DNA from: Polyangia bacterium
GTDB lineage: Bacteria; Myxococcota_A; Polyangia; Polyangiales; Sandaracinaceae
Reading direction: 5' to 3'
DNA length: 32,368 bases
NCBI GenBank assembly: GCA_030426845.1
Contig: JAUHXR010000069.1
Coordinates: 1 to 32,368 of the forward strand
Shown here: positions 2,551 to 7,801 of the stretch, piece after piece
Layout: every line of letters begins with the position of its first letter
How positions within the stretch are numbered: the stretch's first letter is position 1
Position numbers and translations under genes: made by a program
Notes under the pieces: model-generated
Seen by the model: the letters and a program-made list of their open reading frames with translations, nothing else
The model's database searches: none
Told to the model about the DNA's origin: nothing

Positions 2551-5136
2551 ATGTCCCGCGTCCTCGTCGTCCACGCCACGAACGTGCTCGCGCGGGGCTT
2601 CGAGGCCACTTCGCCGGACGCGGCCCGAGGACAGGACGGCGGCTCGACCAGCGCGCTCCGCTTCGTGACGCGCGCGCTCCTCGCCGCGATCGGGTTCAAG
2701 GAGCCCGAGCGCGCCGTGGCGGTGCTCGACGCCGCGGTCGACCCGGCGCGGCTCCCGCCCGCCCACGCGGCCCAGCTCCGGCGTCTCCGTGAGGTGCTCG
2801 AGGCGCACGGGCTGAGGTGCGTCGACGCGGGCGGTGGCGGTGGGAGCTTGCCGCGTGCGATCGACGTGGTCGCCTCCTACGTCGCGGCGGCGCGGGCGCT
2901 CGGGCACGACGTGGTGGTCGTCGGCAGCGACAAGCGCCTCGCGCAGCTCGTGAGCGACGACGTGTGGTGGTACGACCCGTACAAGGACGCCCGCTACACG
3001 GTCGACATGGTGCGCAAGCGCTTCGACGTAGGCCCGGACCGGGTCGCCGAGTGGCTCGCGCTGGTCGGCGACGACGACGCGCTCCCCGGGATCAAGGGCA
3101 TCGGGCGCAAGGGCGCGACCGCGCTGCTCGAGCGCTTCGGCTCGGTGCGCGCCGCGCTCCCGGAGGCCGCGTCTCTCGGGGGCCGCACCGGGAACGCGCT
3201 CGTCGCGGCCGGCGCCGCGGTGGAGGCGGAGGTCGCCCGCGCCGCGCTCCGCGGGGACGCGCCCCTGCCGATGCCCCTCGAGACCCTGTCCTACGCGCCG
3301 CCGGACGCCGAGACGCGGCAGGCGCTCTACGAATTGCTCGGCTTCGTCTCGCTCCTCGCGCGTGGCGACGCGCCTCCCGAGGTGGCGACCGAGGTCTGCG
3401 CGACGCCCGCCGCTGTCGAGGCCGCCCTCGCCGCGCTGGGGCCCGGGCCGATCTCCCTCCACGCGTTGATCGGCGACCCGTCGCCGCCGCGCGGCGCCCT
3501 CGTCGGGATCGCCCTCGCGAAGGCGGGCGGGCCCGCGTTCTACGTCCCGGCGGACGAGCCTCGCCTCGGCGCGCTGGCGCCGTTCCTCGCCGACCCGAGC
3601 CGCCCCAAGATCGGCCACGACGTGAAGGCGGCGGAGGTCGCGCTCGCGCGCCGTTCGATCCCGGTCGCGGGGGTGGTCGCGGACGCGGCCTGCGCGTCGC
3701 ACCTGCACGAGCCGAGCAACTTCGCGCCCCAGGATCTGCCGATCCTCGCCAAGCGGATCCTCCGCCGCCCGCTCCGCGAAGAGGACGAGGTGCGCGGCGT
3801 CGGGCGATCGCGCAAGGGGTGGGGCGAGCTCCCCGAGGCCCGCGCGGCCGCGTTCGCGGGGTCGTACGCGGAGGCGGCGGCCTGCGTGTGGGAGGCGCTC
3901 GCGCCGACCACGGATCGTGCGCTCCTCGACGAGTACCTCGCGCTCAGCGAGACGCTCGTCCGCATGGAGCTGCGGGGCGTCGCGGTCGACGCAAAGGACC
4001 TGTCGCGCGCGGGGGACGACTTCGCCCGCATCGGGGCCGAGCTCGAGGCGGAGATCTACGGGCTCGCCGGCAAGGAGTTCAACGTCAACTCCACCAAGCA
4101 GCTCGGCGAGGTGCTCTTCGAGCAGCTCGGTCTGCCGGTGGTCAGCCGCACGAAGACCGGCTGGAGCACCGCCACGCACGCGCTCGAGCGCATCGAGGGC
4201 GCGCACCCGATCGTGCCGCTCGTCATCCGCTGGCGCCTGCTGCGGCGGCTCAGCGACACGTGGGTGACCGCGCTGCTCGCGGCGATCGACCCGGACGGCC
4301 GCGTGCGCTCGACGTTCTCCCCCGCGCGCTCGTTCTCGGGCCGCCTCGTCAACGCGAACCCGGACCTCGGGCGGGTCCCGGGCGCGACCCCGGAGATGTC
4401 GCGCATCCGCCACGCGTTCCGCGCGCCGGCCGGGCGCGCGCTCCTCTCGCTCGACTATCGCCAGCTCGGGCTCTACGTGCTGGCGCACCTGACGAAGGAC
4501 CCGAACCTCGTCGGCCCGCTCCGCGACGAGGCCGACATGCACGCGCTGACCGCGGCCGCGGTGCTCGACATCCCGCTCGCCGAGGTCGACCGGGCGGCGC
4601 GCCAGCGCGGCAAGGTCGTCAACTTCGCGACCTTCGCCGGGCAAGGCGCGAGCGCGCTGCGGATGCAGCTCGGGATCACCCCGCGCGAGGCCAAGCGCTA
4701 CATCGCGCGCTTCGATCGGCGCTACGCGGTGGCGCGGGCGTTCCAGGAGGAGCAGCTCCGCCTGGCCCGCGAGCGAGGCTACATCGTCACGATCGCGGGG
4801 CGTCGCTGGCCGATCGGCGACCTCGACTCGAACGACGCGATGATCCGGGGCTACGCCGAGCGGCTGGCGCGCCGCGCGACCCACGAGGGCTCCGTCGCCG
4901 ACGTCTCGCGGCGCGGCCTGCTGCGCGCCGACGAGGCGCTGCGGGCGGCGGGGATCGACGCCTTCCCGCTGCTCCAGATCCACGACGAGGTCCTGTTCGA
5001 GGTGGCCGAGGCGGCCGTCGACGAGGCGGCCGAGATCGGGTCCGAGGCGATGCGGACCGCCTACGAGCTCGAGGTGCCGCTCCGGGTGGGGCGCAAGTCC
5101 GGCCCGAGCTGGTCGGAGCTGTCGCCTCTCGGGTGA
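2551..5136 (+). CDS. Divergent DNA polymerase I-family paralogue, nucleases apparently inactive, altered ribose gate
   Basis: 861 residues from the ATG at 2551. The architecture is that of full-length Pol I: 5'-nuclease fold with H3TH (LPGIKGIGRKGATALLERFG), a 3'-5' exonuclease fold, then the polymerase domain. Catalytic polymerase Asp residues remain: D in motif A (LDYRQLGLYVLAHL) and HDE in motif C (LLQIHDEVLFEV). Motif B keeps R, K and F (RQRGKVVNFATFAG). By hand alignment to E. coli Pol I several key residues differ. Steric-gate E710 is Gly, its partner Y766 is Ala, R712 is Tyr, N845 is Arg and Q849 is Glu. All four exonuclease carboxylates (D355, E357, D424, D501) are lost. In the 5' nuclease several metal-binding acids are replaced (D13 by His, E113, D115, D140) and the arch region is shortened. 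A canonical polA presumably exists elsewhere. I infer an accessory, polymerase-only enzyme; its role is unknown. Confidence 0.85.
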   Translation: MSRVLVVHATNVLARGFEATSPDAARGQDGGSTSALRFVTRALLAAIGFKEPERAVAVLDAAVDPARLPPAHAAQLRRLREVLEAHGLRCVDAGGGGGSLPRAIDVVASYVAAARALGHDVVVVGSDKRLAQLVSDDVWWYDPYKDARYTVDMVRKRFDVGPDRVAEWLALVGDDDALPGIKGIGRKGATALLERFGSVRAALPEAASLGGRTGNALVAAGAAVEAEVARAALRGDAPLPMPLETLSYAPPDAETRQALYELLGFVSLLARGDAPPEVATEVCATPAAVEAALAALGPGPISLHALIGDPSPPRGALVGIALAKAGGPAFYVPADEPRLGALAPFLADPSRPKIGHDVKAAEVALARRSIPVAGVVADAACASHLHEPSNFAPQDLPILAKRILRRPLREEDEVRGVGRSRKGWGELPEARAAAFAGSYAEAAACVWEALAPTTDRALLDEYLALSETLVRMELRGVAVDAKDLSRAGDDFARIGAELEAEIYGLAGKEFNVNSTKQLGEVLFEQLGLPVVSRTKTGWSTATHALERIEGAHPIVPLVIRWRLLRRLSDTWVTALLAAIDPDGRVRSTFSPARSFSGRLVNANPDLGRVPGATPEMSRIRHAFRAPAGRALLSLDYRQLGLYVLAHLTKDPNLVGPLRDEADMHALTAAAVLDIPLAEVDRAARQRGKVVNFATFAGQGASALRMQLGITPREAKRYIARFDRRYAVARAFQEEQLRLARERGYIVTIAGRRWPIGDLDSNDAMIRGYAERLARRATHEGSVADVSRRGLLRADEALRAAGIDAFPLLQIHDEVLFEVAEAAVDEAAEIGSEAMRTAYELEVPLRVGRKSGPSWSELSPLG

Positions 5137-5193: not shown

Positions 5194-5961
5194 ATGCGGA
5201 CCCTCCTCGCGCTCGTCTGTCTGAACCTGCTGGCATGCAACGACATGCCGGCCCCGGTCGACGCCGACGGGCGCGACTCGGGCGCGCGGGCGGACGCGGG
5301 CGAGACGGGCGGCGTGGACTCCGGCCCCGGCGGCGTGGACTCCGGCCCCGGCGGCGTCGACTCGGGTCCCCCGACGGGCTGCGTCTACCCGGCGAACCCC
5401 GTGGAGCCGATGGCGGTGGGCAGCGTCCTGTGGCCCTACGCGTGGCCCGAGGCGATCGACGGGACGGGCACCAACTTCCCGATCGACCTCGAGCAGGTCA
5501 CCTGCAACACCGACCCGAACATCGACTGGAGCCCGTTCGACGTCCTGGTGTTCATCGCCATCCCGGCCTGGTGACCGGACTGCCGCACGCACGCCGGTTC
5601 GGTGGCGCAGGTCGAGGAGCAGTTCGTCGCAGCGGGAGCCCAGATCATCTGGGTGCTGCAGCAGGACAGCTCGGTCCAACAAGGCACCGCGATGAGCTGC
5701 CGGGACTTCATGAACGCGAACCCCCGCAACAGCGACGCGGGGTGGTGCGTGGGGGACGGTGAGACCACCGGCCAGATGACGCCGAGCGACCGCACCTGGA
5801 CCGACTCACCGCTGGCCCTGGGGCGTGGCTACGACCTGATCGTGTCGCGTCGCGACATGGTGATCCGCGACGCGCCGACTCACGGCACGCCCTCGGGCAA
5901 CGAGAACCTGACCGGCGCCGAGCTCCTCGCTCGCGTCCAGACCGTCATCGACTCGCTCTGA
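5194..5961 (+). CDS. Putative selenocysteine-containing thioredoxin-like lipoprotein (in-frame TGA at codon 127)
   Basis: One reading frame runs from ATG 5194 to TGA 5959-5961, interrupted only by TGA at 5572-5574. Read through, it gives 255 residues: a lipoprotein signal (MRTLLALVCLNLLAC), a short Asp/Gly/Ser/Pro linker and a thioredoxin/peroxiredoxin-like domain. The TGA sits in VFIAIPAW-TGA-PDCR, which aligns with WATWCPPCR of TlpA/ResA-type thioredoxins. It therefore falls exactly on the first redox Cys, giving W-U-P-D-C with the resolving Cys at 130. Downstream coding is intact and keeps high third-position GC. A SECIS-like hairpin follows directly. The expected role is a membrane-anchored thiol/selenol oxidoreductase in the periplasm or at the cell surface. 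The alternative is a recent nonsense mutation of a Cys codon (TGC to TGA) or a sequencing error. No sel genes lie in the window. Confidence 0.72.
5308..5370 (+). repeat. Three tandem 21-bp units encoding GGVDSGP linker repeats
   Basis: Three consecutive 21-bp units encode GGVDSGP three times in the linker between the lipidated N-terminus and the thioredoxin-like domain. The first two units are identical and the third differs by a few synonymous bases, pointing to recent slippage or duplication. The repeat length keeps the frame. Confidence 0.85.
5573..5613 (+). promoter_or_regulatory. Candidate bacterial SECIS element
   Basis: Hand folding gives one hairpin beginning inside the TGA. Pairs are 5573-5576 with 5610-5613, 5581-5583 with 5607-5609, 5585-5586 with 5605-5606, and 5592-5596 with 5600-5604 (one G-U). 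The apical loop is GTT at 5597-5599. All right-arm bases are paired; the left arm has bulges at 5577-5580, 5584 and 5587-5591. The loop begins 22 bases after the TGA and its first base is G, as expected for bacterial SECIS elements read by SelB. In DNA this rich in GC other folds are possible, including a 6-bp pairing of 5573-5578 with 5594-5599. Confidence 0.5.
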
Positions 5962-7231: not shown

Positions 7232-7801
7232 TCAGGCGGGGACACTCGGCGGGAAGAGCGGGCCGATCACCGCGCAGCAGATGCCGGCGCCCGGGACGCT
7301 GAAGCAGCTCGGCATGTCGCCCGCGTCGACGCCAGGGACCATGAGGCAGCTGCAGGTCGCGCAGAGGTCTCCTCCGTCGCGGCCGAAGCTGCCTGCGTCG
7401 GCGCGCGAGCCCGCGTCGGGGAACGCGATCGAGCCGTCGGGCCGGGGCGGGCTAGCGTCCGGCAGACCGAGGCCCGCGTCTCTGCGCGGCCCGCTGTCCA
7501 CGCCTGCCTCGAGCGGCCCGACGCCGGCGTCGGCCCGTCCCGCGTCGGCGATCGCCCCCGCGTCCATGCCGCCGGGCCCCGCGTCCATCGCGCCGGGGCC
7601 CGAGTCGACGTCGGTCGGGCCCGCGTCGCCCGGCCCGGAGTCCAGGCTCCCGGGCCCGGAGTCCCTCGTCTGGGCGCCCGAGTCCATGATGACCGGGCCG
7701 GCGTCGGTGCCGCCGCCCGAGTCGCAGGCCTGGACGCCGGCGAGGCCGGTGAGGAGCGCGAGCGCGCGGGTGACGCGCAGGTAGTGCGGGGTCGAAGTCA
7801 A
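7232..7801 (-). CDS. Six-cysteine lipoprotein, upstream paralogue (lipoprotein A)
   Basis: 189 residues. The TTG start at 7801 sits five bases after GGAGG, the same start codon and spacing as the downstream copy. The signal peptide ends GLAGVQAC. A long linker, about 100 residues of DAGP/DSGP-like repeats, leads to the C-terminal module C-x2-C-x-C-x13-C-x8-CC followed by AVIGPLFPPSVPA. Only the two ends are conserved between the copies: the signal region and the Cys module with IGPLFPPSV. That conservation suggests the module is the functional part and the linker only a spacer holding it away from the membrane. It is first of a three-gene set (44-base gap, then an overlap) ending in the ferritin-like protein. 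Function is unknown. Confidence 0.82.
   Translation of the reverse strand: MTSTPHYLRVTRALALLTGLAGVQACDSGGGTDAGPVIMDSGAQTRDSGPGSLDSGPGDAGPTDVDSGPGAMDAGPGGMDAGAIADAGRADAGVGPLEAGVDSGPRRDAGLGLPDASPPRPDGSIAFPDAGSRADAGSFGRDGGDLCATCSCLMVPGVDAGDMPSCFSVPGAGICCAVIGPLFPPSVPA

Follow-up and report, generated by a model that had tools for sequence, protein, structure and literature searches.

The window (the whole stretch of DNA that was analysed, 32,368 nucleotides) carries on its forward strand an open reading frame that runs from an ATG at 5194 to a TGA at 5959-5961 and whose sole internal stop is a TGA at 5572-5574, codon 127. A sequence-only reading had described this TGA as the only break in the frame and had proposed a candidate selenoprotein; the first point was confirmed, and the second gains support from the selenocysteine (Sec) machinery of the genome, the conservation of the TGA and a covarying SECIS hairpin. 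We consider the gene almost certainly intact despite its in-frame stop. DNA polymerase I is the upstream neighbour on the same strand and ends at 5136, and no conserved gene neighbours besides the gene itself were found around 19 family loci. The features of the recoded gene are as follows.

5194..5961, + strand: predicted Sec-containing redoxin lipoprotein, complete recoded ORF (single internal TGA, family alignment; 255 residues plus the TGA stop)
5194..5238, + strand: lipoprotein signal peptide with lipobox L-L-A-C15 and Asn as residue +2 (from the sequence, MRTLLALVCLNLLAC)
5239..5379, + strand: acidic low-complexity linker with VDSGPGG repeats (from the translation)
5380..5958, + strand: Redoxin / AhpC-TSA-like domain (Pfam matches in members; hhalign to Cys relatives, 99.5%)
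5503..5505, + strand: invariant Cys104, retained in the Cys relatives too (family alignment)
5572..5574, + strand: TGA codon 127, predicted to be read as selenocysteine (PAW-U-PDC; TGA in 21/21 family members)
5581..5583, + strand: invariant Cys130 of UxxC, predicted to be the resolving residue (family alignment)
5588..5607, + strand: SECIS hairpin with the apical loop GGUUC (5596-5600) 21 nt downstream of the TGA; the pair 5588/5607 covaries in relatives
5698..5700, + strand: invariant Cys169, missing from the aligned Cys relatives (family alignment)
5746..5748, + strand: invariant Cys185, missing from the aligned Cys relatives (family alignment)
5824..5826, + strand: Arg211, within G-R-G-F/Y, aligned with the cis-Pro site of the Cys relatives (alignment; at least 90% conserved)

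Codon 127 is flanked by Trp126 and Pro-Asp-Cys130 and stands first in a CxxC-type motif. As the same gene also terminates normally at a TGA, the data argue for a context-dependent recoding; a variant genetic code was ruled out, considering that TGA terminates other members as well. We also compared the gene with its paralogue in the same genome (G000). Results showed 13 synonymous and 11 non-synonymous codon differences over 64 codons before the TGA and 38 and 33, respectively, over 128 codons after it, a similar ratio on the two sides, while GC3 was 0.98 before the TGA and 0.91 after. Judging from these codon patterns, coding constraint persists past the TGA, in line with the earlier statement that coding quality is kept downstream.

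We searched for the family with a profile in 379 Myxococcota genomes, then in two classes (71 + 318 genomes), and found 21 genes in 18 genomes belonging to four family-level groups of the phylum Myxococcota. Every member contains exactly one in-frame TGA, always at the codon-127 column (21/21), and 37 columns located on both sides of it are invariant in an alignment of 20 members. The paralogue in G000 (C140) is 72% identical to the window protein and the orthologue in G003, a Sandaracinaceae metagenome-assembled genome (MAG), 60%, both with a single in-frame TGA at the same codon. Cys was found at this column in 0/21 members, and none of the 21 was a decayed copy or had a second in-frame stop, so the decayed relatives with other stops that would have spoken against the proposal did not turn up. 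From the alignment, we judge this conservation of the TGA column to be far beyond chance. The gene is duplicated in several genomes, in tandem at G253:C176:18504-20141 and as G000:C123/C140 and G346:C12/C75, and every copy has retained a TGA and a SECIS hairpin. A scan of viral contigs for the family gave no match.

Outside the family, the next profile matches appeared at E values of about 1e-19 and weaker in the 379-genome search and at 1e-17 in the class search. Those that were aligned are Cys forms with a WCxxC motif and no internal stop, sharing about 22-30% identity with the Sec family, to which hhalign still links them with a probability of 99.5%. In a maximum-likelihood tree, a single branch with a support of 99/100 parts the Sec forms from the Cys forms. 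The gene family therefore has an in-frame UGA at the very site held by Cys in its homologues, as expected of a selenoprotein, and the placement of W-U-P-D-C at the first catalytic Cys of thioredoxins, as well as the anticipated finding of homologues with a conserved TGA (here in many genomes) and of distant ones with Cys, was borne out. The WCxxC lipoproteins of Myxococcota (for example G000:C364, G003:C68 and G002:C113) resemble the Sec family in N-terminal architecture, Cys104 and redoxin-like domain; they differ in having Cys for Sec, in possessing the cis-Pro, in missing Cys169 and Cys185 and in forming a separate clade. Several of them also show an extra C-terminal region with, by eye, a pre-peptidase-type look.

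The N-terminus shows a hydrophobic signal peptide with a lipobox Cys, as in bacterial lipoproteins, reading LLAC in the window protein. A lipobox was found in 20/21 members (some judged by eye), the lone exception sitting at a contig start. Together with the DSGP repeats, this agrees with the lipid-anchored, exported protein with a DSGP linker that had been predicted. The linkers of relatives are alike in kind, although their sequence is unalignable with that of the window. A small ORF at window positions 7232-7801 (- strand), which has no Pfam match, resembles the signal peptide and linker at its own N-terminus (profile search, E 4e-4); this is probably the low-complexity similarity of lipoprotein linkers.

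Assignment of the domain relies on weak but recurrent matches. The window protein matched Pfam AhpC-TSA at E 7e-5 (23.3 bits, below the gathering score of 26) and Redoxin at E 1e-4 (22.6 bits, below the gathering score of 26.6), while among 20 members, at E values up to 0.1, Redoxin was matched by 19/20 and AhpC-TSA by 18/20, with a best E of 4e-5. The family profile matched no solved structure below E 0.45, and an AlphaFold model built from two sequences had a pLDDT of 37. At the level of motifs, the alignment places G-R-G-F/Y-D-I-I-V-x-R-x-x-M of the Sec family where the Cys relatives read F-P-S-A-F-V-V-R-R-x-D-M. Thus, on the alignment alone, the cis-Pro that precedes the third core strand in Thioredoxin/TlpA proteins is replaced by G-R-G-F/Y. 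Peroxiredoxins (Bcp/AhpC), which belong to the same superfamily, share with the Sec family an Arg where thioredoxins have the cis-Pro, and this Arg is a peroxiredoxin trait. Unlike them, the Sec family has no peroxidatic PxxxT/SxxC motif (PxxxTxxC in Bcp/AhpC), its own motif being PAW-U-xx-C with the reactive residue at the first-Cys position of thioredoxins. Cys169 and Cys185 plausibly form a structural or second-shuttle disulfide.

We asked whether the genome is able to decode Sec. All four genes proposed for this check, selA, selB, selC and selD, were found in G000. The tRNA-Sec gene (selC; 78 bits, anticodon tca) is flanked on one contig by selA (339 bits) and selB (249 bits), the latter with a readable frame of 608 codons. 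The selD gene (337 bits, G000:C311:2309-3235) carries an in-frame TGA of its own in LTESGG-U-AAK, the classical GGUxxK position; therefore, selenophosphate synthetase by itself makes Sec decoding a requirement of this genome. Considering the two whole classes, tRNA-Sec is present in 15/18 genomes bearing the lipoprotein gene and in 170/371 others (Fisher p 0.003), the bearers with no match being G176, G289 and G476 (90, 73 and 71% complete). In the window's own family the figures are 2/2 bearers and 0/8 others. An earlier contrast of 15/17 bearers with 1/20 others used hand-picked comparison genomes; as the two-class count replaces it, the association between tRNA-Sec and the gene is real but weaker. 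Matches at or above the Rfam cut-off were found in 134/318 genomes of the class of G000 and in 51/71 of the class of G088, so by this gene count selenocysteine use is common in Myxococcota and Sec decoding extends wider than the lipoprotein gene, as expected. Two tRNA-Sec matches per genome were seen in G141, G437, G466, G467, G493, G306 and G168, which may reflect genuine duplication, mobile copies or the mixing of bins.

We also looked for a SECIS element, using a published bacterial model (a loop of 3-9 nt that lies 16-37 nt from the UGA and has a G among its first two nucleotides, with an energy limit of -7.5 kcal/mol; PMC13188914). In 20/20 members scanned, the loop of the best hairpin lay 20-22 nt downstream of the UGA, and the energy of this hairpin was at or below -7.5 kcal/mol in 19/20, the remaining one having -7.2; the 21st member (G476) folds likewise. 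Loops were mostly of the type NGUUC or NGGGA. Single-sequence energies are unremarkable in such GC-rich DNA, and several members, taken singly, fold no better than codon shuffles; as a family, the mean energy was -10.1 kcal/mol versus -8.3 +/- 0.6 for synonymous-codon shuffles, none of 60 being as low. Covariation was counted over the 11 members with a common stem register, where the pair of columns 17/36 (5588/5607 in the window) is C-G in five, G-C in four and A-U in two, complementary in 11/11 (permutation p 1e-4), and shifting the partners abolishes pairing. Column 36 corresponds to the third position of a codon. In 4 members, AGC replaces TCG for an almost invariant Ser and the hairpin forms in a shifted register. 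Because the register of the stem thus varies among members, the consensus that RNAalifold drew from the full set of 20 sequences was weak.

No sign of a pseudogene is commoner than a lone in-frame stop, and the window assembly (G000, 95% complete) is a fragmented draft of 538 contigs; one could imagine that a TGC, TGT or TGG was mutated or misread as TGA, leaving a protein that is dead or ordinary. However, 18 genomes carry the same TGA in 21 genes, the sequence on either side of it is under purifying selection, no copy has a second stop, and the conservation of the TGA across genera refutes this reading, to which we assign practically no weight. Programmed truncation, with the 126 N-terminal residues as the main product, or reading of the UGA by another tRNA, for example for Trp or Cys, was also considered: the short form would retain the lipoprotein anchor and the linker, and near-cognate read-through of UGA is known in bacteria. 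Against this, the stop falls on the catalytic residue, with the bulk of the domain still to come; the downstream part is strongly conserved, Cys occupies the site in homologues, and both the SECIS hairpin and the complete Sec machinery are present, making this explanation very improbable.

The alternative that deserves most attention accepts a selenoprotein and sees it act purely as a thiol-disulfide oxidoreductase (reductase or isomerase) of the periplasm like TlpA, ResA or DsbE, with no peroxidase function; it differs from our preferred explanation in chemistry only, and our confidence in the two overlaps. The UxxC aligns with the WCxxC of the relatives, Cys130 is invariant, and among the WCxxC relatives a TlpA-like one resembles thiol-disulfide oxidoreductases and thioredoxins of solved structure, while the class-typical cis-Pro is replaced by the Arg of G-R-G-F/Y, reminiscent of the active-site Arg of peroxiredoxins. 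We give this alternative a little less than an even chance. Arg211 for cis-Pro hints at peroxidase-like chemistry, and on present sequence evidence a peroxidase-like and a disulfide-reducing activity have roughly equal odds. More specifically, the proteins could be lipid-anchored selenoperoxidases that face the envelope and make up a Sec-only family of Myxococcota missing from the catalogues; Sec for Cys, Arg for cis-Pro and the extra Cys pair would have arisen on one branch and turned a thiol-disulfide oxidoreductase into a selenol peroxidase; we advance this scenario tentatively, as possible rather than probable.

Whatever the chemistry, we hold with high confidence that the window gene encodes a lipid-anchored, exported selenoprotein with a redoxin-like domain, in which UGA 127 specifies Sec, Sec127 would be the nucleophile and Cys130 the resolving residue; most likely, the product works in the periplasm as a lipid-anchored selenol oxidoreductase and belongs to the redoxin (AhpC/TSA-TlpA) superfamily. 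From the conserved UGA, the Sec machinery, the hairpin, the lipobox and the clade, we infer selenium incorporation, cellular location and chemistry as follows. SelB, bound to the SECIS hairpin that starts 14 nt past the UGA, would deliver tRNA-Sec, which would decode codon 127 as selenocysteine. The signal peptide would then export the product, with the lipid anchor on Cys15, presumably in the periplasmic leaflet of the outer membrane because the +2 residue is not Asp. The flexible acidic linker would bear the redoxin-like domain with the reactive Sec in its PAW-U-xx-C motif. In the manner of other UxxC redoxins, Sec127, predicted to be the nucleophile from the aligned Cys of the WCxxC relatives, would attack an oxidised substrate that may be a disulfide or a peroxide, with Cys130 then resolving the intermediate as a selenenylsulfide; Arg211 at the cis-Pro place tilts the prediction to peroxidase-like chemistry.

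We asked whether the family was already known. In a 2026 catalogue, 119 families or subfamilies of prokaryotic selenoproteins are listed, many of them thioredoxin-like with UxxC, and its Table 1 includes a "Redoxin family protein" (UxxC, PF08534; PMC13188914), represented by HEU0032618.1 and MBA3499694.1. This entry is probably the "Prx-like 3" described in the Global Ocean Sampling study, a set that was delimited by weak similarity and whose Cys homologues number thousands in marine reads (PMC2398784). By description, the only basis of this comparison, the entry resembles our family in having Sec in UxxC and a weak Redoxin similarity (E about 1e-4 in the Sec lipoprotein, below the cut-off) and differs in having Cys homologues, whereas the Sec lipoprotein family has none in the genomes searched; our family may be a divergent part of it. 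The Prx-like thiol:disulfide oxidoreductase selenoprotein (PF00578, UxxC/UxxU) also shares the AhpC-TSA superfamily and UxxC, and is set apart, again by description, by the sub-cut-off Pfam scores, lipobox, acidic linker and Arg for cis-Pro of the Sec family. The NCBIfam library includes many UxxC redox selenoproteins, yet none of its models (release 20.0, June 2026) matches the window protein, and the sole redox match among 20 members was SelL-related (E 0.07, one member). The texts of PMC13188914, PMC9312934 and the deep-Sep paper mention neither Myxococcota nor lipoproteins, and our literature searches found no paper on selenoproteins of Myxococcota. The earlier suggestion that such a protein would be unusual and not described thus stands in part: no NCBIfam model covers it, while exported selenoproteins have precedent and the nearest catalogue entry was compared by description only.

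In conclusion, the Sec lipoprotein presents, as far as sequence can tell, a real and convincing new selenoprotein family of a well-known kind. Standard annotation ends the window protein at residue 126, ahead of most of its domain. Its recognition adds a well-supported, apparently unannotated family in Myxococcota, a phylum whose selenium use scarcely features in the papers searched, and one that is Sec-only in the genomes searched and predicted to be exported and lipid-anchored. As no reversion to Cys was seen across several genera, the advantage of selenium over sulfur becomes testable at one defined site.
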